DNA from: Psychrobacillus sp. FSL K6-4046
Lineage (GTDB): Bacteria; Bacillota; Bacilli; Bacillales_A; Planococcaceae
Assembly (NCBI RefSeq): GCF_038624605.1
Contig: NZ_CP152020.1
Span: 2,783,312 to 2,847,311 of the forward strand
DNA length: 64,000 nucleotides
Direction of reading: 5' to 3'
The stretch's first letter is position 1. Each line of letters begins with the position of its first letter. The translations under genes were made by a program, and so were the position numbers. Of the stretch, positions 5,003 through 43,381 are shown one piece after another. Below the pieces are notes generated by a model. The model was not told the DNA's origin, did no database searches, and was given only the letters and a program-made list of their open reading frames with translations.

Positions 5003-5338
5003 ATACAGGGAACCACCTTTACTTTCGCTATTTATATCATATGCTCTATGACGTAAGAGTTCAAATTTTATTATTGCTTAGGGATAGATAAATAAAGAGA
5101 ATATAACAATTGTATAACTTTTTTCTATGCCGTAGAAATGTGCAGAAACAACTAATAACGTTAATTACGAACTACTTCCCCTTTCATACACAGCCGATGA
5201 TGGTTAGAACGGGTAGCTCTCCAGTTATATAAGTTAAAAATACCACGATTTCACTCACCTCAATGGAAAATGTACTTCTTTAATTTATTCTTTCTGCTCC
5301 ATATAGAAATCAAATTCTCTCGTTTTTTATAATAAAAA
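5003..5338. other. AT-rich intergenic region without recognised gene
   Basis: Leader and promoter region of the RND pump gene plus unassigned DNA. I find no convincing ORF, hairpin or known RNA before the MITE-like element that starts at about 5339. The 9-bp target duplication occupies the last bases (5330-5338). Confidence 0.5.
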
Positions 5339-5723
5339 GCTTTGTTAAAGTTATTGGTTGATTTTGACTAACAATTCTTTTTATAGTGACTGTAAACATT
5401 ATGTAAGTGACTTTCAAATGACTATTGTAATCATAAATAAATTATGAAATTGGGGTTGGACAGTTTTTCAGCTTTGTTTATGCGAGTAAATTGATTAGCG
5501 CTTTATCGATGCTAAAACTGTTCCCATTTATTGATTGGAGCGCCAGACGGCGACTCCAGCGGGAGGAGGGAGACAGATAAGACATCACAACCACGCGCGT
5601 CAGCGATGGGTGGTGGCTTATCGCTCCCCCCGCGGAAAGCGTCCGGCTGGTGCGGAAATCAATTCTACTCTCTGATCTAAGATTTCTTTGTATCATAAAT
5701 CAACCCTACTCTTTAACATAGCC
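5339..5723 (+). mobile_element. MITE-like repeat, copy A (385 bp)
   Basis: The element has imperfect terminal inverted repeats: GCTTTGTTAAAG at the left and GGCTATGTTAAAG reading in from the right, both followed by a diverged GGTTGATTT. It is flanked by the 9-bp direct repeat TAATAAAAA (5330-5338 and 5724-5732). The interior holds a GC-rich imperfect hairpin of about 130 nt (roughly 5535-5665). No transposase is encoded. A 72-codon minus-strand ORF through the hairpin is a by-product. Four related copies lie at 21254, about 29470, 33124 and 42927. Confidence 0.85.
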
Positions 5724-5734
5724 TAATAAAAAAA

Positions 5735-5771
5735 GTAACCAAAAGAATGCGAGCATTCTTCCGATTACCTT
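5735..5771 (-). terminator. Terminator of prfC
   Basis: Minus-strand stem GTAATCGGAAGAATGC / GCATTCTTTTGGTTAC followed by TTTTTTTAT. It sits immediately downstream of the MITE's right target duplication. Confidence 0.8.
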
Positions 5772-5806
5772 TATTTACAATTCCCTATTTGGTAGGGATC
5801 TATACC

Positions 5807-7381
5807 TTATAGTAAGTTATATAGCTTTATATGCTCATATTTGTCTTGGAACCAGCGAGTTGCAAATTCATTTTCAAATAAGAATACATAGTGATCATAA
5901 CGATCTTTTACTAGCATGCTTCTTGGACCTGTCATCGATTCTTTTACATCTTCTTCGTTTTCAATCCAACGAGCTACCTTCGATCCAATTGGCTCCATAC
6001 GAACTTCTACATTATACTCGTTTTTCATACGATGCTCGAATACTTCAAACTGAAGCTGTCCAACTGCACCAAGAATTACTTCTTCTGTATGAAGTGTTTT
6101 GTAAAATTGAATTGCACCTTCTTGTACAAGCTGCATAATACCTTTATGGAAATGCTTAGATTTTAATACATTTTTAGCAGTAACCTTTACAAACATTTCT
6201 GGAGTAAATTGAGGAAGCTTTTCATAATTAAATGCTTTTTTCCCTCCAACAACCGTATCACCAATTTGATAGTTCCCAACATCATAAAGACCAATAATAT
6301 CTCCAGCTACAGCGGTTTCTACTGTCTCACGATCATCAGCTAAAAATTGAGTAGACTGAGTGACTTTAAATGTTTTACCAGTTCGTGCTAGCGTAACAGT
6401 CATCCCTCGTTCGAATTTCCCCGAAACGATACGTACAAATGCTATTCGATCTCGGTGAGCAGGATTCATATTCGCTTGAATCTTGAATATAAAACCGGAG
6501 AAATCTTCGTTCAAAGGATTTACTTCTTCTTCAACATCAGTCATTCTCGGCTGTGGAGTTGGAGCAAACTGAAGATATGTTTCTAAGAAGGTTTGCACAC
6601 CAAAGTTAGTTAATGCACTACCAAAAAATACAGGTGTTAAATCACCAGAAAGTACTTTTTCTTTATCAAAATCATTCCCTGCTTCATTTAACAACATAAT
6701 ATCTTCCATAGCTTGCGTATAATAAGATGTTTCTTTCATAGAATGATCGACAGCTAATTCTCCCTCATCATCTAACGGAAGATATTTTTCAGATTCCTCT
6801 GTGCGGAATTGCTCAATTCGATGATTGTAGCGATCATAAATCCCTAAAAATTCTTTTCCCATACCAATCGGCCAATTCATTGCATAAGATTGAATTCCAA
6901 GTACTTCTTCTAGCTCCTCCATTAATTCAAGAGGTTCTTTACCTTGTCGGTCTAGTTTGTTAATGAAAGTAAAGATAGGAATACCGCGCATGCGACAAAC
7001 CTTAAATAGTTTTAATGTTTGAGCCTCTATCCCTTTGGCAGCATCTACAATCATCACTGCACTATCCACAGCCATCAATGTTCGATAAGTGTCTTCACTA
7101 AAATCCTGATGTCCAGGTGTATCTAATATATTTATACGACAATTATTAAAGTCAAATTGCATAACAGAGGATGTTACAGAAATCCCACGTTGCTTTTCAA
7201 TTTCCATCCAGTCTGAAGTTGCAAATTTCCCCGATTTTTTCCCCTTCACTGTACCTGCATCACGAATAGCTCCTCCAAAATATAAAAGCTTTTCCGTTAT
7301 AGTCGTTTTACCAGCATCCGGGTGGGAAATTATTGCAAAGGTTCTTCTCTTAAGTATTTCTTCTTGTAATTGTTTGTCCAT
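5807..7381 (-). CDS. prfC: Peptide chain release factor 3 (RF3)
   Basis: A 524-residue translational GTPase of normal RF3 length. G1 is HPDAGKTT, switch-II/G3 is [14 protein letters not shown] and G4 is NKLDR. The EF-G-like but domain-IV-less C-terminal part matches RF3 ([16 protein letters not shown] motif seen as [15 protein letters not shown]). RF3 recycles RF1/RF2 from the ribosome after peptide release. It starts at ATG 7379-7381 with AAGGAGAT upstream. Monocistronic, bounded by its own terminator. Confidence 0.95.
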
Positions 7382-7502
7382 ATTTGTATATCTCCTTCTT
7401 ATTCACTTTTTTATCATATGGATTTACTAGCAAAAATACAAGTAAAAAAAGAACTAGCAGACAATTTTACAAATTAATCGTAAAAATGTCTACTAGTATC
7501 CA

Positions 7503-8552
7503 TTACAGAATTTCAGATTGTATATAAGAATACAATAGCTTCGCTGTATTTTCTAATGATTGTATATGAGTTCTTTCATATGCATGCGATGCTTCAATTC
7601 CTGGTCCAAACAATGCATGCTTGACATCAAAACCTGCTCTTATTGCAGCAGAAGCATCAGAACCATAGTATGGATAGATGTCTAACTTATAATCGATTCC
7701 TTCTACCTTGGCTAGTTCGACGAGGTTTCGGGTTAATTCATAATGATACGGCCCAGAGGAATCTTTTGCGCAAATGGAAACAGTATACTCATCCGAGGTT
7801 TGTCCATCGCCTATTGCACCCATATCGACTGCTATATATTCCACTGTTTGTTCTGGAATGTTAGAATTGCCTCCAAATCCAATTTCCTCATTATTAGAAA
7901 TATAAAAATGTGTTGTATAAGGAATCGTCCATTTATTTTCTTTAATAGCTTTCATTAGTTGGAGTAAAAGGGCAGTACTTGCTTTGTCATCTAAATGACG
8001 TGACTTGATAAAGCCAGATTCCGTTTGCTCAAATCGAGGATCAAATGAAACAAAATCCCCGACCTCTATACCTAACTCTCTTGTTTCACTAGCACTTTTT
8101 ACTTTCTCATCCACTCGTACCTCAATGTTTTGCTCATCACGAGCGAGCGTAGTCGCATTTTTATAGACATGAACTGTTGTTTGATGCATGAGAATGGTGC
8201 CCCGTATTTTTCTTCCATCTGCTGTATGGATTGTACAATACTCACCTTCTACTGCGTTCCAATTAAAGCCGCCTACCATTGCAAGCTTCAATCTGCCAGA
8301 AGACTTCACTTCCTTTACCATAGCTCCCAAAGTATCGGTGTGTGCTGTCAGTAAACGATGTTTAGTATCATTTTCTCCTATAATGGTGGCAATAAGTGCT
8401 CCCTTGTTAGTTCTAATATAATTAACATCAATATCCTTTAAAAACTGCTCCATAAAGTCCATGATGTCCTTTGTATAACCGGAAGGACTAGGAATTTCCA
8501 CTAATTGTTTTAGCAAAGAGACAGTCTCTTGCTCTTGAAATTTGTATGACAT
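7503..8552 (-). CDS. M42 family metallopeptidase (glutamyl aminopeptidase-like)
   Basis: A cytosolic dinuclear-metal aminopeptidase of about 349 residues. Metal and catalytic motifs are in family order: TAHTDTLGAM (His, Asp), HLDDKAS (bridging Asp), NNEEIGFGGNS (catalytic Glu pair), AVDMGAIGD and the late GIEASHAYERTH histidine. Relatives include B. subtilis YsdC/YtoP and FrvX, which trim N-terminal residues from peptides. The start at ATG 8550-8552 (MSYKFQEQE) is chosen because AAAGGAGGAG lies 6 nt upstream; a longer frame to 8588 would place that site inside the gene. Confidence 0.88.
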   Translation of the reverse strand: MSYKFQEQETVSLLKQLVEIPSPSGYTKDIMDFMEQFLKDIDVNYIRTNKGALIATIIGENDTKHRLLTAHTDTLGAMVKEVKSSGRLKLAMVGGFNWNAVEGEYCTIHTADGRKIRGTILMHQTTVHVYKNATTLARDEQNIEVRVDEKVKSASETRELGIEVGDFVSFDPRFEQTESGFIKSRHLDDKASTALLLQLMKAIKENKWTIPYTTHFYISNNEEIGFGGNSNIPEQTVEYIAVDMGAIGDGQTSDEYTVSICAKDSSGPYHYELTRNLVELAKVEGIDYKLDIYPYYGSDASAAIRAGFDVKHALFGPGIEASHAYERTHIQSLENTAKLLYSYIQSEIL

Positions 8553-8659
8553 AATGACTCCTCCTTTGTTCTTACTCCATCTTATCAAAATCTTGTATTT
8601 TCAGATACCTTTAAATAGGCTAATATAAGAAGTATCTAATCTGATAGGAGGTGGGAAAA

Positions 8660-10249
8660 ATGGAATATATTAATACTACGAAAGATAAAAATAAATTGTT
8701 TTTCATTATTTTTTCCTGTTTTACCGTATGCCATATTATTCTGGCAATACTTTCACATAACAAGGACCTATTAATTTATCTGTACGCTGGGATAGTATTC
8801 CTACTCATCTTAACGTTGTTATGTTGGGTAAACTCAGAGAACCCAATCATCCAATATATTTTGTTTATAACACTTAATCTTTACCTATTAATCTTGAATA
8901 TATACAGTGACAGCGTAGTAATGATGGTATTTTTTCTTTACCCTATATACATCGCAGTCATCTATTCCAATATTGGTCTAAGAATATTATTATTCTTTAT
9001 AACTATCATTGAAATTCTTGGTCTCATCTATTATAAAAATGATGACTATACATATATTTTGTCCTCAGAAGATTTAATTGCTTTTATACTACTTTTAGCT
9101 ATACTTATTTTCACTTCCATCTTAAATACATACTTTGACCGTAAATATTGGAATAAGATTTCTGAACTAAATACTTCTATGAGAAAAGAGCAATATTCGA
9201 GAGAAAGTTATTTACAGCTTTTTTTTGACAATGCGAAGGATAGTATTACTGTATTTGATAAAGACAATAAAATAATAGAAGTAAATCCTGCTTTTGAGGA
9301 TTTATATGGTTGGAAAAGGGAAGAAGTAATAGGAAAAAGTGTTTCTATTTTGTCTCCACAATATCAGCTAGATGAAACAAGAAAACAAGAGGTATTAAAA
9401 GGGGCCAGCTATCATTTTCTCGAAACTACTGATCGAAAAAAAGATGGAACTTATTTTGATGCCCAAATTACTGTTTCTCCAATTTATGATTACCAAAACG
9501 AGCTGATTGCTCTTTCTATAATTAGTAGGGACGTTAGCTTTAAAAAAGAAACTGAGAATTTATTACTACAATCAGAAAAGCTAAAGGTTGCTGGAGAAAT
9601 GGCTGCTGGAGTAGCTCATGAGATTCGAAATCCTATTACAGTTATATCTGGCTTTATGCAGATTATGAATGGGGACCCTACCCAGCCCTATTACCGTTAC
9701 ACGAAAGTAATTGAAAACGAAATTGAAAGAATCAATTACATTATTAGTGAATTCCTAGTTTTAGCAAAGCCACACGCAAAATTGCCAAAGAAGTATGATT
9801 TAACTCAAACATTAGATGACCTTCTCGTTTTATTTCAACCCGAGATTAACTTGAATGGGATATTTTTGACTACTGATATTATAAAAGGTCCGATACACCT
9901 TTACGGTGAGGAAGGTCAGATGAAGCAAGTACTTATTAACCTAGTTAAAAATGCGATAGAGGCAATGTCTGACAATGGTAAAATCCATATTAGCTGTTCC
10001 ATCGAGCCCCAGGATATCATCCTTATTAAAATTAGAGACAATGGAGTAGGGATGGAAAAACAGGTTGTTGAGAAAATTTTCGATCCATTTTTCTCTACTA
10101 AGATTAACGGGACAGGCCTTGGAATGATGATTTCCGAAAAAATTATTGCTGAACATGGTGGAACGATTGCCATTGAAAGCCAAAAAGGACAAGGAACTAC
10201 AGTAACTATTCAGTTACCTTACACTTCAAGTATAGAGGCTACGGATTAG
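8660..10249 (+). CDS. Orphan membrane sensor histidine kinase with PAS domain (sporulation-kinase type)
   Basis: A 529-residue kinase. The N-terminal ~160 residues form about six closely packed TM segments with short loops. A PAS domain follows at ~185-300 (FFDNAKDSITVFDKDNKIIEVN). Then come the HisKA H-box AAGVAHEIRNPITVISGF and an HATPase_c domain with N-box KQVLINLVKNAIEAM, G1 DNGVGM and G2 GTGLGM. No response regulator is adjacent. The layout resembles B. subtilis KinB/KinE-type phosphorelay kinases that feed Spo0F; that role is an inference. The start ATG at 8660 is 7 nt after ATAGGAGGTG. An upstream GTG overlaps the ribosome-binding site and is rejected. Confidence 0.82.
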   Translation: MEYINTTKDKNKLFFIIFSCFTVCHIILAILSHNKDLLIYLYAGIVFLLILTLLCWVNSENPIIQYILFITLNLYLLILNIYSDSVVMMVFFLYPIYIAVIYSNIGLRILLFFITIIEILGLIYYKNDDYTYILSSEDLIAFILLLAILIFTSILNTYFDRKYWNKISELNTSMRKEQYSRESYLQLFFDNAKDSITVFDKDNKIIEVNPAFEDLYGWKREEVIGKSVSILSPQYQLDETRKQEVLKGASYHFLETTDRKKDGTYFDAQITVSPIYDYQNELIALSIISRDVSFKKETENLLLQSEKLKVAGEMAAGVAHEIRNPITVISGFMQIMNGDPTQPYYRYTKVIENEIERINYIISEFLVLAKPHAKLPKKYDLTQTLDDLLVLFQPEINLNGIFLTTDIIKGPIHLYGEEGQMKQVLINLVKNAIEAMSDNGKIHISCSIEPQDIILIKIRDNGVGMEKQVVEKIFDPFFSTKINGTGLGMMISEKIIAEHGGTIAIESQKGQGTTVTIQLPYTSSIEATD

Positions 10250-10305
10250 TCTCTTCTTTTTATATCCGTTGCATCAAATACTTACATCCCCCATTTACTA
10301 AATCA

Positions 10306-10345
10306 AAAATACCTTGAGAATGGGATCTCAAGGTATTTTTGCTTT
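10306..10345. terminator. Bidirectional terminator between kinase and GGDEF-EAL genes
   Basis: Near-perfect stem AAAATACCTTGAGA / TCTCAAGGTATTTT with T-runs on both strands, between convergent genes. Confidence 0.8.
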
Positions 10346-10421
10346 AGTAGTTTCGCTAATTTTCAAAAATGAATAGGTAGTTATCATCCAATTTATAAGA
10401 TTAAAAGATCCCCATATAATA

Positions 10422-12599
10422 TTATAATTGCGAAGCCAATAGCTTAAAGCTCGGAACGTCCTCCACACGAAGAGGCTTGGAATAATAGAAACCTTGGACA
10501 ATTTCACAATTATGCAGCTTTAAAAACTGGATGACTTCCTCTGTTTCCACCCCTTCTGCCACTACTTCTAAACCAAGACTTTTGCCTATTTTTATAATAG
10601 ATGACACTATTACTTCGTCTCTTTTTTCTATGATCTGATTCATAAAGACTTGATCTATTTTTAACGTATGAATAGGCAGTTCCTTTAAATAACGGAAATT
10701 TGAAAAGCCGGAGCCAAAATCATCCATAGCAATTCGAACACCGTATTGTTTTAATTCCTCCAATATAGTAGACAGCTTGCTTATATTTTTCATTAGAATG
10801 TTTTCCGTAATTTCCAATTCTAGATAATGTGGTGGAAGCCCAGTCTCATGAAGAATATATTTTACATTGGTTGTAAAGTCATTTTGATCTAACTCGACTG
10901 GACTTATATTCACAGATATTGTACTAAAAGACAATCCCTCTTTTAACCACTGTGTAGCTTGTTTACATGCTTCCTTAAGAACATACCTACCAATCGGAAT
11001 AATTAGCCCTGTCTCTTCTGCAAATGGAATATACTCATTCGGAGGAATAATATTTCCCCCCTTTCTATTCCATCTAATGAGAGCTTCATAGCCTTGAACC
11101 TTGTTGGTAGTTAGGTTTAATTTCGGTTGATAGACTAGAAAGAATTCGTTCTTTTTAAGTCCCATTCGAATATCACTCTCTAAAGACAATTTATCTATAT
11201 ATCCTTTTTCATATTCAGATGTATACAAGACTGCTGTTCTCTTCCCTTTATCTTTCGATTCATTTAACGCTAAATCTGCAGCTCTATGTAAAGCATTATA
11301 GCTATCGCCGTGTTCCGGAAAGCAGGAAATTCCAATAGAGCATGAAATGTATAACTCCATTTCATGAATGCTAAAAGGCTTTTCAATTTCTTTTAATAAC
11401 AGTTGGGCATTACTTAATGAGTCTCTACAAGAAAAATAGTCATCCTCCAAAAGGATAACAAACTCATCCCCGCCCATCCTATAAATCTTGGCGCCTTTGG
11501 TATAAAATTTCTTCATTCTTTTAGAAACCTTTTGTAATAGCAGGTCTCCTGTAACATGACCTAATGAGTCATTAATATTTTTAAATCTGTCTAAATCAAT
11601 ATATAGAAAACTAAACTTTTCCTTTAATTTTATCTTAAGCTGGATATCTCTATTTAATGCTGCAGTATTGTATGTATTTGTTAAGTGATCCTCGTACGCT
11701 AGCTCTGATAGTTTCTTTCTAGTCTTTTCTATTTCCGTGATATCATTTCCTATTCCTATTGCGCCCATTATTTCACCTTCTTTTTCAATAGGTGAGATCG
11801 TGATATGAATACATTTCGGCCCAAACCACTCTTTATATGAAACTTCCTTCCCTAAAAAGACCTCAGAAATATTCTCCTTAAATCTATCAGATATTTCTCG
11901 AGGAAAATAATCCATCGTCTGACTGAAGGATCGAGATGTTTGTTCCGCAAACAGTTCATTGGAAGGATGAATCATCGGAATTCCTCTTTCCAAAAAATAC
12001 TCTGTTGCTATCTTTCCGGTTAGTAGGGTAAAATTCAACTCTTTATCTAATCTAAAAATTAAGTTATTTACATGTCTCACTACAGTATCAAAGGAATTAA
12101 TGATATTAGTTTTTAAACGTAGCTCATTTTCTTTTTCAGGTGTTATATCTGTTCGAATACTTAAAAAGTATGTACCTTGGTCAATTGTATTAATAGGCAA
12201 AATGTAAGTCTTTACCCAATACAATTCTCCATTTTTCCGTTTGTTACATATTTCACCTACCCATGTTTGACCTTGAAGAATAGTTTTCCACAATTCTTCA
12301 AAAAAACCAGACGGGTGGGTGAAGGAATTAATAATTCGATGAGTTTTTCCGATTAATTCTTCACGAGAGTAACCAGAGATCTCTGTAAATTTGTCATTTA
12401 CATATAATATTTTACCTGCACGATTAGTTAAAGCTATAATCATTGTTTTATTTACTGCATAGCTCATCAGATTCATTTTGTATAATGTATCTTCAAGTTT
12501 TTCTCCCAAAAGGTTAATATCTGACAATGACTCTTTATGTAAAGCTTCTTTTACTGTGAGCAATAAATCTTCGGAACCTGTTCCAAATATGGACTCCAT
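10422..12599 (-). CDS. PAS-PAS-GGDEF-EAL cyclic-di-GMP enzyme
   Basis: A 725-residue soluble protein. PAS 1 (~45-155, VNDKFTEISGYSREELIG) is followed by a diverged PAS-like sensor (~165-290). The GGDEF domain (~300-460) has an intact RMGGDEFVILLED signature. The EAL domain (~470-720) has intact YEALIRW, NISPVEL, LEITEN, MDDFGSGFSN, KIDQVFM and EGVETEE motifs. Both active sites look complete, so the protein could make and degrade c-di-GMP; which activity dominates cannot be told. It has no membrane segment, so input is probably cytosolic (redox or ligand through PAS). Single gene, with start ATG behind GGAGGACAAATT. Confidence 0.9.
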   Translation of the reverse strand: MESIFGTGSEDLLLTVKEALHKESLSDINLLGEKLEDTLYKMNLMSYAVNKTMIIALTNRAGKILYVNDKFTEISGYSREELIGKTHRIINSFTHPSGFFEELWKTILQGQTWVGEICNKRKNGELYWVKTYILPINTIDQGTYFLSIRTDITPEKENELRLKTNIINSFDTVVRHVNNLIFRLDKELNFTLLTGKIATEYFLERGIPMIHPSNELFAEQTSRSFSQTMDYFPREISDRFKENISEVFLGKEVSYKEWFGPKCIHITISPIEKEGEIMGAIGIGNDITEIEKTRKKLSELAYEDHLTNTYNTAALNRDIQLKIKLKEKFSFLYIDLDRFKNINDSLGHVTGDLLLQKVSKRMKKFYTKGAKIYRMGGDEFVILLEDDYFSCRDSLSNAQLLLKEIEKPFSIHEMELYISCSIGISCFPEHGDSYNALHRAADLALNESKDKGKRTAVLYTSEYEKGYIDKLSLESDIRMGLKKNEFFLVYQPKLNLTTNKVQGYEALIRWNRKGGNIIPPNEYIPFAEETGLIIPIGRYVLKEACKQATQWLKEGLSFSTISVNISPVELDQNDFTTNVKYILHETGLPPHYLELEITENILMKNISKLSTILEELKQYGVRIAMDDFGSGFSNFRYLKELPIHTLKIDQVFMNQIIEKRDEVIVSSIIKIGKSLGLEVVAEGVETEEVIQFLKLHNCEIVQGFYYSKPLRVEDVPSFKLLASQL

Positions 12600-12747
12600 A
12601 ATTTGTCCTCCAATTTTAATTTATCGTAAAAACCTAACCGCTTCACTTCAAATATTAGTAAAAAAGATACAAAATGTCAATATTACATTGATATAATAGG
12701 TTTATTCATTGTCACCATTTGGACATTAGTTAATTACAACGCACTAA

Positions 12748-12785
12748 AGGTGCGACAATTTTATATCATCGCACCTCCAAAAAAT
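12748..12785 (-). terminator. Terminator of the aldehyde dehydrogenase gene
   Basis: Minus-strand arms AGGTGCGA / TCGCACCT with an AT-rich loop, plus a flanking TTTTTT run. Confidence 0.6.
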
Positions 12786-12789
12786 ACTA

Positions 12790-14647: not shown

Positions 14648-14713
14648 ATTATTTTCTAAAAGTCAGTATTTTTATTTTGAATTAGTAATGTATCGTAGTT
14701 ACTTAGAACATGT

Positions 14714-21215: not shown

Positions 21216-21248
21216 CCGTTCGGCTAACTCACCGAACGGTTTTTTTTA
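21216..21248 (+). terminator. Terminator of the coat gene
   Basis: Perfect CCGTTCGG / CCGAACGG arms followed by T8. The MITE-like copy B is inserted immediately behind it, and its target duplication reuses the end of the T-tract. Confidence 0.9.
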
Positions 21249-21253
21249 TGTTT

Positions 21254-21600
21254 GGCTATGTTAAAGGGTAGGTTTGATTTATGATATAAAGAAATCTTAG
21301 ATCAGAGAGTAGAATTGATTTTTCGCCCCAACCGGACGCTTTCCTCGGGGTGAGCGATAAGCCATCACCCATCCCGTAGGAGTCGCCGTCTGGCGCTCCA
21401 ATCAATAATTGGGAACAGCTTTAGCATCGAAAAAGCGCTAATAAATATACTCGCATAAACAAAGCTAAAAAACTGTCACCAACCCTATTTTCATCATCTT
21501 TTTATGTTCTTAATAGCCATTTGAAAGTTCAATTGTTTATGTTTACAGTCACTATAAAAAAGAATTGTTAGGCAAAATCAACCAATAACTTTAACAAAGT
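21254..21600 (-). mobile_element. MITE-like repeat, copy B (347 bp, short form)
   Basis: Inverted orientation relative to copy A. It starts GGCTATGTTAAAG at 21254 and ends CTTTAACAAAGT at 21600. A perfect 9-bp direct repeat TTTATGTTT flanks it (21245-21253 and 21601-21609). The inner hairpin lacks about 40 nt of one arm compared with copies A, D and E, a deletion shared with copy C. Confidence 0.85.
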
Positions 21601-21767
21601 TTTATGTTTAAAAAACACCTTACTTTTACTACCAAAGCAAATACTAAAAGGTTATTCAACACCCTCTGAGAAAACAGCAGCAAACGCACTTGTCAGTGAC
21701 AACTGCTCCCAATGAAAAACAGAAATCCAACATTTATCGAATACTTTTATGGTAGAATACAACAAAA

Positions 21768-29469: not shown

Positions 29470-29771
29470 AAAAGGCCGGGCTTGATATCTATGATGCATA
29501 AAAAATTCTAAATCGGGAAGTAGAATTGATTTTCGCACCAAGACCACCTTTCCTAGGGGCGAGCGATAAGCGATCATACATCCCACTGGAGTCGCCGTCT
29601 GGCACTCCAGTTAAAAAAGCCCTATTTAATAAATTACTTGCATAAATAAAGCCGGAAAAATCACTCCAGCCACACTTCATAATCAATTTATATTTTTAAT
29701 AGTCGTTTAATTTACAGTCGGTATAAAAAAGAAAAGTTTAGTCAAAATTGACCGATAACTTTACCATAGCC
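29470..29771 (-). mobile_element. MITE-like repeat, copy C (degenerate short form)
   Basis: Same orientation and same hairpin-arm deletion as copy B, but more diverged. The end near roxS keeps a good terminal repeat (GGCTATGGTAAAG read on the minus strand at 29759-29771). The opposite end has lost its terminal repeat and fades out near 29470. No target duplication is recognisable. It ends only a few bases from the roxS terminator. Confidence 0.65.
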
Positions 29772-29776: not shown

Positions 29777-29811
29777 AAAAAACCCTTTCCTCAATTAGGA
29801 AAGGGTTTTTT
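29777..29811 (-). terminator. Terminator of roxS
   Basis: AAACCCTTTCCT / AGGAAAGGGTTT stem with T6 on the minus strand; it can also act on the plus strand. Confidence 0.9.
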
Positions 29812-29877
29812 ACAAAGGGGATGGGAGAAATGTTCACGTTCAAACAAAGGGGTGTATGTTATCTTGTGATTTATTTC
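29777..29877 (-). ncRNA. roxS: RoxS/RsaE-family small regulatory RNA
   Basis: The minus strand reads ...ACATACACCCCTTTGTTTG, then AACGTGAACATTTCTCCC and ATCCCCTTTGT, and ends in a strong terminator. The two CCCCTTTG motifs, the CTCCC motif and the location between pepF and spxH match RsaE of staphylococci and RoxS of B. subtilis, as I remember them. This RNA represses central-metabolism mRNAs by C-rich base pairing. The estimated 5' end at about 29877 gives roughly 100 nt, the expected size. The exact start is inferred. Confidence 0.85.
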
Positions 29878-29918
29878 ACACTCTTACTTTAGCATGCTCC
29901 AGTAATAAAAACAACTCC
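29863..29918 (-). promoter_or_regulatory. roxS promoter with Rex/ResD-type palindrome
   Basis: Minus strand TTGTTT, a 17-nt spacer, then TAAAGT (about 29888-29916), followed by TGTGAAATAAATCACA (29865-29880) at the presumed start site. The palindrome fits the Rex operator pattern (TTGTGAA-N4-TTCACAA) with small deviations and also matches the Fnr/Crp half-site pair TGTGA-N6-TCACA. B. subtilis roxS is reported to be controlled by ResD and Rex. Confidence 0.6.
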
Positions 29919-33038: not shown

Positions 33039-33123
33039 GATAATCACCTCCATTCTTAATATACAAATAAAAGAAATAAAACGCAATAATCAAAATCATA
33101 ATGGTATGAGGTTAAAATTTTTA

Positions 33124-33512
33124 GCTTCGTTAAAGTTACTAGTTGATTTTGACTAACAATTCTTTTTTTATAGTGACTGTAAACATAAACAATTGAACTT
33201 TCAAATGGCTATTAAGAACATAAATAGATGACGAAAATGGGGTTGGTGACAGTTTTTTAGCTTTGTTTATGCGAGTAAATTTATTAGTTCATTATCAATG
33301 CTAAAGCTGTTCCCATTTATTGATTGGAGCGACAGACGGCGACTCCAGTGGGATGAGTGAGACAGATAAGACATCACAACCGCGCGCGTTAGCGACGGGT
33401 TATGGCTTATCGCTCACCCCACGGAAAGCGTCCGGCTGGGGCGGAAATCAATTCTACTCTCTGATCTAAGATTTCTTTGGATTATAAATCAACCCTACAC
33501 TTTAACATAGCC
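33124..33512 (+). mobile_element. MITE-like repeat, copy D (389 bp)
   Basis: Ends GCTTCGTTAAAG and GGCTATGTTAAAG (read inward). It is flanked by a perfect 9-bp duplication AAATTTTTA (33115-33123 and 33513-33521). Full-length hairpin form like copies A and E. Confidence 0.85.
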
Positions 33513-33526
33513 AAATTTTTAAAACA

Positions 33527-34425: not shown

Positions 34426-34434
34426 AATCCTGAA

Positions 34435-34830: not shown

Positions 34831-34845
34831 CATATTAAAAAACAC

Positions 34846-35330
34846 TTCCTCTCGATTGTTACTTGTGTTATATAAAGTAGATTATAATTAATTTAATGTA
34901 GTTTAGCACTTTTATAGTATACACTAATTAATAAGTATTTAAAATACATTTTTCCAGAAATTTTCTCACTTATAAAGAGTATTTACAATTTGTACATATA
35001 ATGAACAACCTGATACATTTTTAGAATAATAATGTTTCTTTAATACAATGATACCCTTTTTTAAAAGCATTTAAACCATGTTTTCTAAAAAATATTCATT
35101 CTCAATTAGCAGTTCTTTAATGAAAACAACTGTTACACTATATAGTACGTTTTTCATGAAAAAAAGTTTCATTTTATGTTGTAATTAAGGCGCGTTTGCT
35201 CATTTTTTAAGTAAAATGATCGGATAGTCAGTTGGATTGGATATCACGTACATCTATAGTTTTAATTTCCCCCTTGTAGTCACTTTAAGCAACTGTATGG
35301 AAGTATCCTATCAAAATAGCAGATAGTAAA
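34846..35330. other. AT-rich promoter region of spx, no gene seen
   Basis: Nearly 500 bp with no convincing ORF. A TATACT hexamer on the minus strand at about 34916-34921 could be a -10. Long leaders with several promoters are known for spx in Bacillus, but I cannot assign them here. Confidence 0.35.
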
Positions 35331-35374
35331 AAAGCTCCCTAAATTTTACTTTCGTAAAATCTGGGGAGCTTTTA
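35331..35374 (-). terminator. Terminator of the glycosidase-like gene
   Basis: AAAAGCTCCCCAGATTTTACG / CGTAAAATTTAGGGAGCTTT-type stem (near perfect), followed by T6 on the minus strand. Confidence 0.85.
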
Positions 35375-35393
35375 ATCCTAGACACTTGTCACA

Positions 35394-36611: not shown

Positions 36612-36810
36612 AACCGTCTCCCTTTCTTTACGTCTAACATTCTAACAACTATATCGTACGATGAAAAGAGTACATACGTCTAATATTACAATAAAAATTA
36701 TAATTAATCTAAATGTTCAGCTATATCATTATTTCTTTTCACCCTTACTCCATAATCAAAGAAATTTGTATAACTTATTTTTAGCTTTAACTTTGAAAAT
36801 ATGTCCTGAC

Positions 36811-36856
36811 AAAAAAAGTAGGCTAATTCGAATTTCTTCGATTAGCCTACTTTTAA
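36811..36856 (-). terminator. Terminator of the opp operon
   Basis: AGTAGGCTAAT / ATTAGCCTACT arms with T7 on the minus strand. Confidence 0.85.
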
Positions 36857-36863
36857 TGGTTTA

Positions 36864-37805
36864 TTAAATACGTGATTGGGATATAGCTTTTAGTTCTTTA
36901 AATTCCTTTTCAGAACAAAATACAAAGTGACCCGGTGTAACTTCACGCATTGCAATTTCTTCCCCATCCGTATATTTGTGCGAAGAAGGATCATAAGACT
37001 TACGTACACGAGTACGCTCATAGTTAGGATCTGGAAGCGGGATAGCAGATAATAGAGACTGCGTATATGGATGTAATGGATTTGAGTATAATTCTTCGGC
37101 AGGTGCAAGCTCTACTAACTTACCGAAATACATTACACCTATTCTATCTGAAATGTATTTAACCATGGAAAGGTCATGCGCGATGAAAAGATATGTTAAA
37201 CCCTTTTCTTCCTGCAATTCTTTTAATAAGTTAACTACTTGGGCTTGGATAGATACATCTAAAGCTGATATTGGTTCATCCGCAATAATGAATTCTGGAT
37301 CTACAGCTAACGCTCTAGCTATACCTAGACGTTGACGCTGACCACCAGAGAATTCATGAGGATAACGTTCAGCATGCTCTTTATTAAGACCCACTGTTTC
37401 CAGCAATTCAATTACTCGCGCCTTACGTTCAGTCTGATTTTTAACTAAGCCATGAATATCTAAACCTTCCGCTATGATATCCAAAACTTTCATACGCGGA
37501 TTTAAAGATGCGTAAGGATCTTGGAAGATCATTTGCATTTTACGGTTAAAGATTTTCAAATCTTTTTTCGATTTTTTATCATGTACGTTTACACCATCAT
37601 AAATAACTTTTCCGTCAGTAGCATCATAAAGTCGAATAATAGTTCGTCCAGTTGTAGACTTACCACATCCGGATTCACCTACTAAACCCAAAGTTTCACC
37701 TTTATAGATGTCAAAGCTAATGTCGTCTACTGCACGAACTTCATTTTCTTTACCTTCGTTAAAATATTGCTTTAAATTTTTAATTTCTAGTAATTTTTCA
37801 GCCAT
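36864..37805 (-). CDS. oppF: Oligopeptide ABC transporter ATP-binding protein OppF
   Basis: 313 residues. Walker A GESGCGKST (~44-52), signature EFSGGQRQRLGIARAL, Walker B FIIADEP and H-loop IAHDLSMV. The C-terminal oligopeptide/dipeptide-type extension (ELYSNPLHPYTQSLLSAIPLPDP) is present. Pairs with OppD to energise peptide uptake. Its ATG overlaps the oppD stop. Last gene of oppA-oppB-oppC-oppD-oppF. Confidence 0.94.
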   Translation of the reverse strand: MAEKLLEIKNLKQYFNEGKENEVRAVDDISFDIYKGETLGLVGESGCGKSTTGRTIIRLYDATDGKVIYDGVNVHDKKSKKDLKIFNRKMQMIFQDPYASLNPRMKVLDIIAEGLDIHGLVKNQTERKARVIELLETVGLNKEHAERYPHEFSGGQRQRLGIARALAVDPEFIIADEPISALDVSIQAQVVNLLKELQEEKGLTYLFIAHDLSMVKYISDRIGVMYFGKLVELAPAEELYSNPLHPYTQSLLSAIPLPDPNYERTRVRKSYDPSSHKYTDGEEIAMREVTPGHFVFCSEKEFKELKAISQSRI

Positions 37806-38860
37806 TAGTTAGTACTCCCTTCGTAGTAACGACTTCCAGGGAAATTTTTCATACGTTCAACAATCGACGCAGGTGGCTCTACTTTTGGTGCGTCAGGGTG
37901 CAATAACCATGTAGCAGCGTAATGCGTATCACTAACCTTAAAGAATGGAGGAGATTGCTCCAAATCTATTTTCATTGCATAGTCACTACGAAGTGCAAAA
38001 GCGTCTCCTTTAGGAGGGCTTAACAAATCGGGTGGTGTTCCTGGAATTGCATAGAGTTTTTCTTCAGCAGTATCTAATGACGGCATAGAGCTTAACAAGC
38101 CCCATGTATATGGGTGCTGAGGGTTATAGAATATTTCATCTACCGTGCCTGTTTCCACAATCTTACCACCGTACATTACAGCTACTCTGTCCGCAACATT
38201 AGCAACTACTCCTAAATCATGCGTAATAAAGATGATGGATGTATCAATTTTCTTTTGTAAATCTTTCATTAATTCTAAAATTTGCGCTTGAATTGTTACA
38301 TCCAATGCCGTTGTTGGTTCATCCGCAATCAGAATCTGTGGATTACAAGCTAGGGCAATAGCTATAACAATACGTTGACGTTGTCCACCAGAGAATTGAT
38401 GAGGATATTGTTTTATACGAGCTTCCGGCTTTGGCATACCAACTAGACGCAATAAATCCACCGCTATTTTTCTTGCCTCTACCTTACTTACTTTACGATG
38501 CTTTAAAATAGGCTCCATAATTTGTTTACCTATTGTCATTGTTGGGTTTAAAGAAGTCATTGGATCTTGGAAAATCATAGAGATATCTTTTCCGCGAATC
38601 TTTTGCATTTCTCTATCCGTAAGCTTTGTTAAATCTTTACCATTAAAAAGAATCTGTCCATTTTTAAATTCAGAGCTTGATTCCGGTAATAAACGCATAA
38701 TCGCCTTAGTTGTAACTGACTTACCAGAACCAGACTCCCCTACGATTGCAAGTGTTTCACCTTTTAAAAGATCGAAGTTAACACCACGAATAGCTTTAAC
38801 TTCACCTGCAAAAGTATGGAAGGAAAGCTCTAGATCTTTAACTTCCAATATTTTATCCAT
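37805..38860 (-). CDS. oppD: Oligopeptide ABC transporter ATP-binding protein OppD
   Basis: 351 residues. Walker A GESGSGKSV, signature QFSGGQRQRIVIAIAL, Walker B LIADEPTTALD, H-loop ITHDLGVV, and the C-terminal TVDEIFYNPQHPYTWGLL extension. Good AAAGGAGGAAAGCAAGG site in the 15-bp gap after oppC. Confidence 0.94.
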   Translation of the reverse strand: MDKILEVKDLELSFHTFAGEVKAIRGVNFDLLKGETLAIVGESGSGKSVTTKAIMRLLPESSSEFKNGQILFNGKDLTKLTDREMQKIRGKDISMIFQDPMTSLNPTMTIGKQIMEPILKHRKVSKVEARKIAVDLLRLVGMPKPEARIKQYPHQFSGGQRQRIVIAIALACNPQILIADEPTTALDVTIQAQILELMKDLQKKIDTSIIFITHDLGVVANVADRVAVMYGGKIVETGTVDEIFYNPQHPYTWGLLSSMPSLDTAEEKLYAIPGTPPDLLSPPKGDAFALRSDYAMKIDLEQSPPFFKVSDTHYAATWLLHPDAPKVEPPASIVERMKNFPGSRYYEGSTN

Positions 38861-38875
38861 CCTTGCTTTCCTCCT

Positions 38876-39895
38876 TTAGTCTTTCATCTTTGGATCTAGC
38901 GCATCTCTTAAACCATCACCAAGAAGGTTAAAGGACAGCATTAGTAAGCTTATAATTACAGCTGGGAATACTAAAATATGTGGCTGGAATTTTAGTAATT
39001 TAACTCCATCATTAATTAGTGTACCTAAAGAAGCTGCAGGCGGTTGTAATCCTAACCCGATAAAGCTTAAGAAAGCTTCGAAGAAAATCGCACCAGGAAT
39101 AGTAAACATCGTGTTAATAACAATAATACTTAAAACGTTTGGTAGAATATGTTTTGTTATGATTCTGTTATTTGAAGCACCTAACGTACGAGAAGCTAAA
39201 ACAAATTCTTGGTTTTTATATTTCAAAACCTGAGCTCGAACAACGCGAGACATACCTATCCATCCAGTTATCGTAATGGCAATAATAATTGCCGTGATAC
39301 CAGGATCCATAAACATAATCATGAGAATAACAATTACTAGATTTGGAATACCAATTAGAATCTCTACTATACGTTGCATAACATCATCTACACGTCCACC
39401 GTAGTAACCCGAGATACCTCCATAGGCCACTCCAATAACCATGTCTATTAAGGCAGCCATGAATGCGATGAAAAGAGATACCTGAGTTCCTTCCCATACT
39501 CGAGCAAACATATCACGACCTAGACCATCTGTTCCAAACCAATAATAAGTATCTACATTTTTTAATTCATATAAATTGACTTCTTTACCTGCCAAGTTTC
39601 CATATCCATCCATAATTCCAAGCTTTTCGATTCCTGGAACTTTTGGTGGCAAGTTAGCATGTGTAATTGTTTGTGTTTCTGCATCATGAGGGCCAATGTA
39701 TGGACCAATCAATGACATAAGAATAATAAATACTAGTATAAAAACACTGACTATAGCAGCTTTATTTTTTCTTATGCGATACCAAGCATCTTTCCAAAAG
39801 CTTACGCTCGGTTTAGAAATTCTCTCCGCTTGACTGCTATCTACATGGATTCTATCAAATGAATCAGCAGGTAATTTTTTCAAGTCTTGACTCAT
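38876..39895 (-). CDS. oppC: Oligopeptide ABC transporter permease OppC
   Basis: 339 residues. One N-terminal TM (AAIVSVFILVFIILMSLIG), a long extracytoplasmic loop with FGTDGLGRDMFARVWEG, and five more TMs. The EAA coupling loop reads RTLGASNNRIITKHILPNVLSII. Forms the channel with OppB. Overlaps oppB by one base. Confidence 0.93.
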   Translation of the reverse strand: MSQDLKKLPADSFDRIHVDSSQAERISKPSVSFWKDAWYRIRKNKAAIVSVFILVFIILMSLIGPYIGPHDAETQTITHANLPPKVPGIEKLGIMDGYGNLAGKEVNLYELKNVDTYYWFGTDGLGRDMFARVWEGTQVSLFIAFMAALIDMVIGVAYGGISGYYGGRVDDVMQRIVEILIGIPNLVIVILMIMFMDPGITAIIIAITITGWIGMSRVVRAQVLKYKNQEFVLASRTLGASNNRIITKHILPNVLSIIVINTMFTIPGAIFFEAFLSFIGLGLQPPAASLGTLINDGVKLLKFQPHILVFPAVIISLLMLSFNLLGDGLRDALDPKMKD

Positions 39896-40827
39896 TAGTT
39901 TTTACCTCCTGACAAACGAATACGTGGATCAATGATTCCATAAAGTAAATCTATAATGAATATTACAACAATTAAGAATACAGAGAAGAAAATCGTAGTA
40001 CCCATAATAATAGAATAGTCATTTACGTTAATAGATTTTACAAATTGTTCTCCGATTCCTGGGATAGCAAAGATTTGTTCAATTACTAATGACCCAGTTA
40101 ATAATCCTGCTGCCATCGGACCAAGTACAGTCACTAACGGAATCAAAGCATTTCGCAAAGCGTGTTTAAATGCTATTTCAGTACCATTGGCTCCTTTAGA
40201 CTTTGCTAATGTTATATAATCAGAGCTTAAAACTTCTACCATCTCGGTTCTTATAAAACGAGCTGCAGTAGCCAGTGGTCCCAGTGCTAATGCAATGGAA
40301 GGCATAATACTTGAGGCCCATCCATCTTTCCATAAAGCTACCGGTAGAATTCCCCACTTTACACCTAACCAATATTGTAATACTGTAGCAAACACGAACG
40401 ATGGTATAGATATACCAATAATGGCTATGATGGTACTTCCATAGTCCCAAAATGTATTTTGTTTTAATGCAGCAATCATTCCTAAAAGAATACCTACTAG
40501 TACTCCGGCAATAAGACCTTGGGAACCAATTTGGAACGATGGTCCAATACGACTTAAAATCAAATCAGTAACTTCAGCATTTTTGAACTGAAACGAGTTA
40601 CCTAAATCACCTTGAACTAAGTTAAGCATGTAATTTACATACTGGACGGGAACTGGATCATTTAATCCATATTTCGCTTCCACTATTTCAAGTTGAGACG
40701 GGGATAGTTTTGAAGCAGAGCTTATAGGGGATCCTGGTAGCGTCTTCATTAAGAAGAATGTAGCTGTCGCAATCAGGAAAAGCGTGATAAACATATAAAA
40801 AACACGACGCAAAATATATTTCGCCAT
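39895..40827 (-). CDS. oppB: Oligopeptide ABC transporter permease OppB
   Basis: 310 residues, six TMs starting at YILRRVFYMFITLFLIATAT. The loop motif MKTLPGSPI and the EAA-type coupling segment LAKSKGANGTEIAFKHALRNALIPLV are present. Follows oppA after a 197-bp gap that contains a hairpin likely to lower expression relative to oppA. Confidence 0.93.
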   Translation of the reverse strand: MAKYILRRVFYMFITLFLIATATFFLMKTLPGSPISSASKLSPSQLEIVEAKYGLNDPVPVQYVNYMLNLVQGDLGNSFQFKNAEVTDLILSRIGPSFQIGSQGLIAGVLVGILLGMIAALKQNTFWDYGSTIIAIIGISIPSFVFATVLQYWLGVKWGILPVALWKDGWASSIMPSIALALGPLATAARFIRTEMVEVLSSDYITLAKSKGANGTEIAFKHALRNALIPLVTVLGPMAAGLLTGSLVIEQIFAIPGIGEQFVKSINVNDYSIIMGTTIFFSVFLIVVIFIIDLLYGIIDPRIRLSGGKN

Positions 40828-40955
40828 CTTTGCACCTCCTAAATTATTTAATAAATTATAATTTTACTAATCTATATATTAAACAAAAAAAATAGTAATT
40901 TGTCAAAATCATATTTTATAGTAAAAATATTGCGTATATTTCGACTCATTTAAAA

Positions 40956-40997
40956 AGAGAGTATATGTTCCGAAAGGAATACATATACTCTCATTTT
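40956..40997 (-). terminator. Partial terminator/attenuator between oppA and oppB
   Basis: GAGAGTATATGT / ACATATACTCTC arms followed by TTTTTAA on the minus strand. Such a hairpin lets the binding protein be made in excess of the permease. Confidence 0.75.
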
Positions 40998-41024
40998 ATG
41001 AGATTTTTAAAACTTTAAACTATC

Positions 41025-42749
41025 TTAGTTTTTACCTTCGATATATGCCCATTTGTAGCTATAGTCTCCACCGAATGGGTGAGCAACGATACCTTTAACA
41101 TATGGTTTTTGAAGTTGCATAAGACCACGTTGGTAAATTGGTCCAATAGCATAGTCTTCAGCAATTAGAAGTTTTTCAGCATCAGCAAGTGCTTTCCAAC
41201 GAGCTTCTGTATCTAATGCTAATTCATTGTTAGCAGAAGTTACTAACTCATCATATTTCGGGTTAGAATAAGACATTTGGTTGTTACCACCATCAGTTAA
41301 CCATAAGCTCATGAATGTGTAAGGATCTTGGTAATCTGGTCCCCATCCAGCAACTTGAATGTCATAGTCTTGGTTTGTATCAAGATCTAAGCGCACTGCA
41401 AATGGTACTTCTTTAAGAGTAACAGTTAAACCTGGTAAGTTTGTTTCTAATTGATTTTTGAAATACTCATCCATCTTCTTAGAAAGATCAGAGTCTCCGC
41501 CAAGAATTTCTAGAGTAAGCTCAGTAACTCCTAGTTCTTTTAAGCCTTTGTCCCAAGCTGCTTTTGCTTCTTCTACGTTAAATGTAGACATATCTCCATT
41601 AACTTCGCGGAAATCATTAGCATCTTCGTCAAAAGTGAATCCTTGTGGTACTAGGTAATGAGCAGGTACAGAACCATTAGCTAAAACTACGTTAACTAAA
41701 TCTTCTTTGTTGATAGCTTTTGAAACTGCTTCACGAATATTTACGTTAGCAAGTGGAGTAGGTTCTCCATTACGTTCTTGATTGTATTTGAAATAGAATA
41801 CTGATGTTTCCATTTCTGTTACTAGTTCTGGATCATTAGCATATTGCATTGCATACTCACCAGATAGACCAGTACGGTCTTTTTCACCATTAGTGTAAAG
41901 GTTAACCGCTGTAGCTACTTCTTTAACTACATCATAGTTAATTTCAGTAAGTTTCACAGTATCTTTATCCCAATATTGATCATTTTTAACTAGTTTCCAG
42001 CTTAAGCCTGTTCCATCCCAATCTTGTAAAGCGAATGGTCCGTTGTATAAAAGTGCTTCAGAGTTTTTAGAGTAATTTTCACCTTGAGTTGTAACGAATT
42101 CTTCTTTTTGTGGTAAGAATGTACCAAATGACATTAATGATAAGAAGTAAGGAACTGGTTTTTCAAGAGTAACTTCTAATGTTTTCTCATCTAGAGCTTT
42201 AACACCTAATTCAGTATACTCAACTTCTCCAGCTACAATTTTAGATGCATTTGCGATTACGCCTTCCATCATGTATGGACCGTATTCAGAAGCAGTATCT
42301 GGGTTCATAGCACGTTTCCAAGCGAATTCAAAGTCATTTGCAGTAACTGGTGTACCATCAGACCAATTAGCGTCACGTAATTTGAACGTATAAACTAATC
42401 CATCTTCAGAAACTGTTGGCTCTCCATCAGAAATTGCTGGTACAGCTACATTTTCTTGATTCAAACGGTAAAGACCTTCATTTACGTTGTTTAGTAGATC
42501 GAAACCTACTGAGTCAGTTACTAAAGCAGAATCAAGAGTTGGAATTTCAGAACCCATGATTAAGTTTAATACTTGCTCTTCGTCTAATGTTGCTTCTTCA
42601 GCACCATCGTCTTCTTTTTCTCCATCTGTTTCAGTTGCTGGTTCGTTAGCTGGTGTTTCTTTAGCCTCATCGTCGCCGCCACATGCAGCTAGGAATAGAC
42701 CTACAACTAACAGTAGGCTAAGAAGCCATACTAATTTACTATTCTTCAC
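41025..42749 (-). CDS. oppA: Oligopeptide-binding lipoprotein OppA
   Basis: 574 residues. The lipoprotein signal ends LLLVVGLFLAAC (lipidated Cys ~23), followed by an acidic linker (GGDDEAKETPANEPATETDG) and an SBP_bac_5 domain from about 65 (VLNLIMGSEIPTLDSALVTD). Captures peptides outside the membrane for OppBCDF. First gene of the operon, with TAGGGAGGTTATTTTTGTG upstream. High expression is suggested by codon regularity and the downstream attenuator. Confidence 0.94.
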   Translation of the reverse strand: MKNSKLVWLLSLLLVVGLFLAACGGDDEAKETPANEPATETDGEKEDDGAEEATLDEEQVLNLIMGSEIPTLDSALVTDSVGFDLLNNVNEGLYRLNQENVAVPAISDGEPTVSEDGLVYTFKLRDANWSDGTPVTANDFEFAWKRAMNPDTASEYGPYMMEGVIANASKIVAGEVEYTELGVKALDEKTLEVTLEKPVPYFLSLMSFGTFLPQKEEFVTTQGENYSKNSEALLYNGPFALQDWDGTGLSWKLVKNDQYWDKDTVKLTEINYDVVKEVATAVNLYTNGEKDRTGLSGEYAMQYANDPELVTEMETSVFYFKYNQERNGEPTPLANVNIREAVSKAINKEDLVNVVLANGSVPAHYLVPQGFTFDEDANDFREVNGDMSTFNVEEAKAAWDKGLKELGVTELTLEILGGDSDLSKKMDEYFKNQLETNLPGLTVTLKEVPFAVRLDLDTNQDYDIQVAGWGPDYQDPYTFMSLWLTDGGNNQMSYSNPKYDELVTSANNELALDTEARWKALADAEKLLIAEDYAIGPIYQRGLMQLQKPYVKGIVAHPFGGDYSYKWAYIEGKN

Positions 42750-42926
42750 AAAAATAACCTCCCTAATATTCAGAAAAATTCATTACATTTATTATTATAC
42801 ATTTTATAAGAGAGTTGTACATACCTTTTTTTAAATATTTTTACAATCATGTAACAAAATCATTACATTGTCCTAACGAATTAGGAAGATTCTTAACTAT
42901 TTTGTTAATTATCTTTTATTTTTTTA

Positions 42927-43314
42927 GCTTTGTTAAAGTTATTGGTTGATTTTGACTAACGATTCTTTTTTATAGTTACTGTAAACCATTATTAAAAGAA
43001 TATTCAAACGACTATTAAGATTAAATAGATTATGAAATTCGGATTGGGTACAGTTTTTCGACTTTATTTATGTGAGTAAATTAATAAGCACTTATCTATG
43101 CATGAAGCTGTTCCCATTTATTGATTGGAGCGCCAGACGGCGACTCCTACGGGATGAGTGAGACAGATCAGACATCACAACCACGCGCGTAAGCGATGGG
43201 TGATGGCTTATCGCTCACCCCGAGGAAAGCGTCTGGCTGGTGCGAAAATCAATTCTACTTTCTAATTTATAGATTTCTTTCCTTCATAAATCAACCCTTC
43301 CCTTTAACATAGCC
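42927..43314 (+). mobile_element. MITE-like repeat, copy E (388 bp)
   Basis: Ends GCTTTGTTAAAG and GGCTATGTTAAAG (read inward), full hairpin form. The flanks are AT-only. ATTTTTTTA precedes it (42918-42926) and recurs at 43317-43325, two bases beyond the right end. The target duplication is therefore probable but slightly decayed. Confidence 0.8.
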
Positions 43315-43381
43315 ATATTTTTTTATTAGTTTTGATTATTTCAAACAAATCTTCTATAATTTAATTTATTAGAGGTGAATT

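Follow-up and report, generated by a model that had tools for sequence, protein, structure and literature searches.

Bacterial miniature inverted-repeat transposable elements (MITEs) are short and noncoding, and they have inverted-repeat ends and target duplications. Five repeats of this kind were found in a 64,000-nucleotide stretch of the Psychrobacillus sp. FSL K6-4046 genome (contig NZ_CP152020.1, positions 2,783,312 to 2,847,311), which is referred to as a whole as the window. The five repeats were very probably copies of a chimeric MITE that originated from an insertion sequence (IS) of the IS1595 family. They differed from other bacterial MITEs in that a transposase 5' end was joined to an unrelated hairpin.

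The IS1595 family was reportedly described by Siguier in 2009. Two elements with IS1595-family transposases are MTnSag1 and tISCpe8, according to the available portion of PMC5704250. These passenger forms shared the transposase family, the 8-bp duplication, and internal passenger genes with the elements described here. In contrast, many transposase-less derivatives were found per genome in our case, and the passengers had repeated palindromic sites at their borders. In mobile insertion cassettes such as MIC231, IS ends also enclose passenger genes and no transposase is present, as stated in excerpts of PMC3129680 and PMC6542083. Here, however, the ends were of the IS1595 type rather than the IS231 type, and the units occurred in most of the genus with varied cargo.

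Gene arrays with palindromic sites were also found in this work, and integrons were the known system to compare them with. In Firmicutes, the only complete integron found was that of Limnochorda pilosa, and attC clusters without an integrase (CALIN) were few, according to the available part of PMC9024848. Integrons and CALIN shared with our arrays mostly one-directional runs of single genes or operons, repeated palindromic sites, and nearby tyrosine recombinases; the group II intron genes in some runs were a further likeness. The arrays differed from them in that no IntI reached the cut-off, the sites did not conform to the canonical attC boxes, and the order was Bacillales. With the terms searched, no report of the MITE family or of a Bacillales cassette system was found in the open-access literature.

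Results

Five MITE copies in the window

The original prediction described five related elements with imperfect terminal repeats, and it assigned perfect 9-bp flanking duplications to copies A, B, and D and a slightly decayed duplication to copy E. All five elements were located where they had been placed, with coordinates off by at most 1 base, and their imperfect terminal repeats were real. The decayed duplication of copy E was also borne out. The duplications of copies A, B, and D were genuine, but they were 8 bp in length and not 9 bp. The positions in the window are as follows.

5338 to 5723, plus strand: MITE copy A, 386 bp; 8-bp duplications TAATAAAA at 5330 to 5337 and 5724 to 5731
21254 to 21601, minus strand: MITE copy B, 348 bp; duplications TTATGTTT at 21246 to 21253 and 21602 to 21609
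About 29470 to 29771, minus strand: MITE copy C, about 302 bp; damaged in one of its terminal repeats and lacking a clear duplication
33123 to 33512, plus strand: MITE copy D, 390 bp; duplications AAATTTTT at 33115 to 33122 and 33513 to 33520
42926 to 43314, plus strand: MITE copy E, 389 bp; flanking duplications equal at 7 of 8 bases
33123 to 33226, plus strand: the left arm (about 104 bp) of copy D; a remnant of the 5' end of the IS1595 element that includes the transposase start codon
33318 to 33453, plus strand: the core of copy D; a hairpin that is a repeat in its own right and occurs across the genus
33486 to 33512, minus strand: the terminal inverted repeat at the right end of copy D (27 bp); matches the IS right end and was also recovered in a pattern search

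The reported density of five copies in 64 kb was a local cluster, as 0.86 copies were expected (Poisson P of about 0.002 for one fixed window, although the window was chosen by a reader who had already seen the cluster). Two RNA elements were observed near the copies. An end of a RoxS/RsaE small RNA (RF01820, window positions 29777 to 29879) was located about 6 bases from copy C, the damaged copy. A T-box leader (RF00230, 43778 to 43991) was located downstream of copy E.

A family of about 50 copies with 8-bp target duplications

When the whole genome was searched with copy D, as the original prediction had proposed, at least 42 matches and about 40 copies were found (40 of 158 candidates were scored). 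The working list, which included variants found through their ends, contained 52 units. The family therefore comprised about 50 copies in the genome and not five. The end pattern GGCTATGTTAAAGNNNANGGTTGATTT occurred 96 times in the genome when up to 3 mismatches were allowed, compared to 0 times for the reversed pattern.

Both ends were located in 27 of the 41 listed copies. The flanks were equal at 7 or more of 8 positions in 21 of these 27 two-ended copies, and 11 of the 21 were equal at all 8 positions. In a control with 2,000 re-pairings of the flanks, the mean was 0.40 copies and the maximum was 4 copies at this level. Flank agreement in the 27 copies was then considered by column: columns 1 to 8 agreed in 19 to 25 copies, and column 9 agreed in only 14. 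The supposed ninth base was the terminal base of the element, which was an A in 26 of 27 copies after one C-ended copy was re-read. Because column 9 coincided with this terminal A, the duplication was 8 bp, and a 9-bp duplication was ruled out.

In 387 kb of this genome, 31 of 42 nearest convergent end pairs had flanks that differed at no more than 1 of the 8 positions, and these 31 duplications were 94% A+T, compared to 64% in the 387 kb. Loci from relatives, which were not selected for duplications, were also analyzed. At least 7 of the 8 flank positions agreed in 41 of 42 nearest convergent end pairs spanning less than 500 bp and in 21 of 24 pairs spanning 500 bp or more, a count in which two loci (L157 and L158) were orthologous. 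None of the 29 MITE copies examined had a boundary inside an open reading frame (ORF) of at least 90 codons. As expected for MITEs, the elements were short, lacked a transposase gene, had terminal inverted repeats and target duplications, and were present in multiple copies. Searches of plasmids and phages with copy D and of viral contigs with the end pattern yielded no match. A different MITE of about 182 to 183 bp, with similar ends and 8-bp duplications, was observed in Metabacillus litoralis SaN21-6 (e.g., L279, L281, and L283).

A probable IS1595-family parent

The original prediction had also proposed a search for a full-length IS with the same ends. Copies, repeats, and flanks were listed for this genome, and an intact IS with these ends was found in a relative, genome G009 (inferred to be P. 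psychrodurans). This IS was 2,021 bp, had a duplication, TTTTTAAA, that was equal at 8 of 8 positions, and encoded a 340-aa transposase. The transposase scored 215.9 bits against the NCBIfam IS1595 model NF033547 (cut-off of 75) and 62.8 against Pfam PF12762 (cut-off of 27). Its putative N-terminal zinc ribbon scored 45.8 against NCBIfam IS1_IS1595_Zn (cut-off of 28) and 23.1 against Pfam PF12760 (cut-off of 25.4).

A MITE consensus of 389 bp was built from 21 copies with a mean pairwise identity of 0.90. Its first 104 bases aligned with the first 110 bases of the G009 IS, through the leader and the start codon, with a score of 95, compared to a shuffle maximum of 30 to 36. At the right end, a 27-base match to the IS right end scored 44, compared to a shuffle maximum of 28. 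Among the 30 IS1595 loci retrieved, 13 were two-ended, and 11 of these 13 had the same terminal repeats and 8-bp duplications. IS1595 and ISLre2-type elements had both been named as candidate parents. The intact IS whose 5' end is copied in the MITE, together with the shared ends and the 8-bp duplications, supported IS1595. ISLre2 elements make 9-bp duplications, and the 8-bp length found here speaks against them.

No PF12762 match was found in the FSL K6-4046 genome, and a protein search with the transposase detected one fragment of 67 residues that was 42% identical and contained a stop. Thus, the host appeared to lack an intact transposase, and the family looks orphaned in this genome. Elements with 8-bp duplications and with transposases that were 91 to 93% identical to each other were found in Psychrobacillus, Sporosarcina luteola, and Metabacillus litoralis, which suggested recent spread between genera. 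On the Pontibacillus plasmid NZ_CP062975.1 (about 680571 to 682688; L384), an IS1595-family transposase gene and a DUF6176 gene were located between two pieces of a glutamine synthetase gene, as if inserted there.

Empty sites in relatives

A comparison of empty sites in relatives, which had been suggested as a check, yielded clean empty sites for two copies. Copy B was absent from the conspecific genome G061, copy E was absent from G001 (another species), and in each case, the flanks abutted over a single target. Copy D was absent from G001 and G016, and copy A was absent from G016, with flank alignments that were less clean. Together, the clean empty sites of copies B and E and the duplications, which were far above the control, supported the original proposal that the repeats are transposition products of a non-autonomous element.

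Copies A, C, D, and E were present in G061. There, copy A was inverted at the identical target (L222, about 4027 to 4401), and this was the sole inversion among the 24 shared sites checked. Inversions of this type were described for ISWpi1, with terminal-repeat recombination or re-insertion considered as causes, in the available part of PMC3004938. In G001, the place of copy A (L223:3200-4130) was occupied by a series of hairpin cores at intervals of about 215 bp, of which three were whole and a fourth was partial. Among the matches listed, 37 G061 copies were examined: 21 shared a site with a listed copy of this genome, one (L328) was located where this genome has no copy, and one (L344) was located at a shorter copy of this genome. 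The other 14 cannot be counted as private, as 13 had flanks outside the compared sequence and 1 was a partial match.

The hairpin core and an IS4-family element

The core of copy D (136 bp) was not IS derived, and it occurred without MITE ends in other Psychrobacillus species, with clusters in G001. On each strand, it was predicted to fold into a single long hairpin (z of −4.87 and −5.47). In 22 aligned copies, 16 of the 40 predicted pairs had at least one copy with pair-keeping changes on both sides, a count that ignored the relatedness of the copies.

The core also served an IS4-family IS of 1,596 bp as its landing site. All six full-length copies in 19 genomes were located at the same core position, in both orientations and with an 11-bp duplication. 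This is reminiscent of IS insertion into palindromic repeats, as described in the available part of PMC1525189. The copies are as follows.

459203 to 460798, 513635 to 515230, 941348 to 942943, and 1376996 to 1378591: four IS4-family copies in the FSL K6-4046 genome
L371 and L374: two IS4-family copies in G061

Two long MITE copies contained the IS4-family transposase, which was rejected as the autonomous partner because it belonged to this separate IS with its own 11-bp duplication. A unit of 2,368 bp at 2100513 contained an IS3-family transposase, which was taken as a nested IS.

Passenger genes between the same ends

Some units with the same ends carried passenger genes. They included the following.

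L074: signal peptidase I; flanks equal at 7 of 8 positions
L072: S51 peptidase; 7 of 8
L071: DUF5412 protein; only 3 of 8
L070: Imm50-like protein, just under the cut-off; 7 of 8
L142: MFS transporter; 8 of 8
L144, L145, L146, and L160: further passenger units; 8 of 8

Like mobile insertion cassettes, these units had IS ends, a passenger gene, no transposase, and, with the exception of L071, a target duplication. Sequence matching the 121-bp end of the passenger class was present in 16 of the 19 genus genomes, in some of them only in part. The nearest long ORF read towards the same end in 22 of 26 loci from other genomes, a count that may include host genes beside a lone end, since the second end was absent at some loci.

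The inner ends of the passenger units were compared with four transposase-bearing elements. One inner end was the sequence directly after the transposase in 3 of the 4 elements, and the other was the sequence near the right end in 2 of the 4. Because of these matches, the passenger units look like transposase-deleted forms, and the ancestral layout looks like a terminal repeat, a transposase, a terminator, a convergent passenger, and a second terminal repeat.

Palindromic sites and gene arrays

A palindrome of about 28 bp, CTTAAACTAACGNNGCAGTTTAGTTNAA, was found near the passenger end of many units, and further copies were located between the genes of several two-gene units. The palindrome had 11 matches in the 387 kb of this genome, compared to 0 in three shuffles, and it had no match in the window. 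Across all loci, 100 distinct sites were found, and 35 of them had an IS1595-type end no more than 160 bp away (at least 2 of these ends were weak); most of the loci were retrieved for such ends, so this proportion should not be read as a natural frequency. When the scan was repeated with a different pattern, 100 sites were again obtained, 44 of them in a leader context and 36 in an array context. In the array context, a half site and a terminator-like hairpin preceded the full site. The site itself was palindromic, with inverted arms around an asymmetric spacer (CGNNGCAG). The leader sequence was joined to cassette starts and also to cassette ends.

Arrays were identified in Psychrobacillus sp. 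OK028 (L270, which begins at an IS1595-type end), Psychrobacillus sp. OK032 (L264), and Sporosarcina sp. ACRSL (L293). Their sites all pointed in one direction, except for overlapping opposite-strand matches that were due to the palindrome. A covariance model built from 21 sites detected 9 sites in plasmid loci of Peribacillus frigoritolerans CK6, 10 in Mesobacillus foraminis, and 4 in P. simplex. When neighboring stretches were included, the numbers rose to 18, 26, and 5, respectively, and all 49 sites were one-directional within each plasmid. Annotated genes followed the site direction in 57 of 64 cases, and the corresponding counts in the neighboring stretches were 29 of 40 (CK6) and 47 of 53 (M. 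foraminis). Many of the array genes were typical cassette genes (GNAT, methyltransferase, DinB, and HAD), and group II intron genes were among them. In this genome, the model detected 8 sites in the 18 loci supplied; it detected no site in the window or in twelve chromosomal loci (L220 to L231).

Five array loci had no Rfam match at gathering scores. The canonical attC box RYYYAAC was present in 3 of 21 sites, GTTRRRY was present in 8, and both were present in 1. Among the plasmid matches listed, those from Enterococcus (129 plasmid records) and Staphylococcus (8 records) covered only 24 and 34 of the 84 nucleotides, respectively, with an E value of about 0.6, and they were taken as chance or terminator similarity and excluded. 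The Staphylococcus matches H84 and H92, which covered 34 of the 84 nucleotides of the site consensus at dfrK with an E value of about 0.6, were probably also due to chance or a terminator. The phage matches to the site were short and weak (E value of about 3) and were rejected.

Tyrosine recombinases near the sites

A tyrosine-recombinase fragment at one end of the Sporosarcina array shared 69% identity across 85 residues with a recombinase of 279 aa that is encoded close to the P. simplex array, at 169526 to 170365 of plasmid pSHB26 (NZ_CP011009). Relatives of the 279-aa protein were found in 25 of 72,556 plasmid records at an E value of 1e-30 or better. All 9 plasmids with a recombinase at 46% identity or more had a site match, which was a weak single place in 2 of them (NZ_CP102590, E value of 0.6; NZ_CP085713, E value of 0.2). 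The 16 plasmids at 36% identity or less were absent from the site matches listed. On CP053689, sites flanked the recombinase on both sides, and the recombinase read against 23 of 24 genes on one side and against three genes on the other. The model had 16 matches on this plasmid up to an E value of 0.05; 13 were on the strand of the genes, and 2 of the other 3 were echoes. This plasmid (CP053689.1; L391) is labeled Arthrobacter citreus and carries sites otherwise found in Bacillales, and its organism label looks doubtful.

CK6 carried a different recombinase of 189 aa inside its array. Six tyrosine recombinases near sites, arrays, or cassettes, two of them short, scored 31 to 95 bits against the IntI model TIGR02249 (cut-off of 265). 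All six scored higher on Xer-type models than on IntI, and they reached no cut-off. In the FSL K6-4046 genome, a 321-aa Xer-like tyrosine recombinase (1912298 to 1913263; L120:3799-4764) was located between passenger and MITE-like units and scored 238.7 bits against the XerD model (cut-off of 329.6).

Discussion

The MITE family is new, of an already known kind. IS1595 was not mentioned in the text of a MITE review (PMC10969869). The MITE would have arisen when an IS1595-family element was stripped of the transposase body. The 5' end of the element (terminal repeat, leader, and start codon) and its right terminal repeat would have been retained and would now enclose a hairpin repeat of unrelated origin. 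Working in trans, a transposase would recognize both terminal repeats and insert copies in AT-rich intergenic targets with an 8-bp duplication. We infer that an IS1595-type transposase that was later lost from the lineage mobilized the MITEs in this way.

Several results weigh against this account. Both ends were not shown in 14 of the 41 listed copies, and 6 of the 27 two-ended copies had fewer than 7 of 8 flank bases equal, although one of the six (204977) was equal at 8 of 8 when read with a C end. The intact IS was in another species, and it shared only 27 bp with the MITE right end. PF12762 matches were found in 29 of 200 genomes of the family and in only 2 of 19 genomes of the genus, and the transposase protein search had matches in 9 of the 19, mostly fragments. 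With so few matches, and these mostly fragments, activity in this lineage may be over. In addition, no transposition event was observed.

The MITEs could derive from a different IS family whose ends are similar (ISL3, ISLre2, or IS256-like), with a convergent likeness to IS1595. ISL3 elements also make 8-bp duplications, and an ISL3 transposase remnant was located beside one end (715874 to 716089). This was a single 72-position remnant that was outside the end and read as an interrupted old gene, so ISL3 was rejected as the partner. The left-arm match, which spans 104 bp and runs through the IS1595 transposase start, and the duplication length of 8 bp rather than 9 bp also made this origin very improbable. 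The repeats could instead be structural or RNA elements similar to repetitive extragenic palindromes (REPs) that were spread by recombination and not by transposition. The strong predicted hairpin, its pair-keeping double changes, and its occurrence without MITE ends in other species are in line with this idea, and a REP-like origin may fit the core alone. It did not fit the MITE: whole copies had defined ends, and the 8-bp duplications and clean empty sites disfavored such an origin, which we regard as extremely unlikely. An IS1595-derived MITE remained the best account of whole copies.

The arrays contained runs of co-oriented single-gene cassettes between repeated sites and appeared to be laid out like integron arrays, and they were not classed as integrons because of the attC box counts and the IntI scores. 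For these arrays, we put forward, at roughly even chances, that Bacillales have an integron-like system of gene-cassette capture that is built from other parts. Its parts would be the palindromic site with the CGNNGCAG spacer, a leader site, a terminator at the cassette end, and a XerA/XerD-like tyrosine recombinase. IS1595-family transposons would carry the leader and a cassette slot, much as Tn402-type transposons carry class 1 integrons. The captured genes would be spread by descendants of these transposons that lack a transposase, among them the passenger units of this genome.

It is also quite conceivable, if somewhat short of an even chance, that the palindromes are mere terminators or regulatory repeats and that the passengers were acquired by ordinary recombination, with no cassette recombinase involved. 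The array-class repeat did contain a terminator-like hairpin, both canonical attC boxes were present in just one of the 21 sites, and neither the CK6 (P. frigoritolerans) nor the M. foraminis array plasmid was among the 25 records with the candidate recombinase. The uniform direction of the 49 sites within each plasmid argued against such a role, as did the joining of the leader to cassette starts as well as cassette ends and the site matches, 2 of them weak, on all 9 plasmids with the closer recombinases.

The cassette side of these results is what would matter. If the arrays recombined site-specifically, environmental Bacillales would shuffle adaptive genes by a system of their own that is moved on a transposon. 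If true, this would explain the high diversity of passengers with IS1595 ends. The site, the candidate recombinase, and the natural arrays are now defined precisely enough for laboratory tests.

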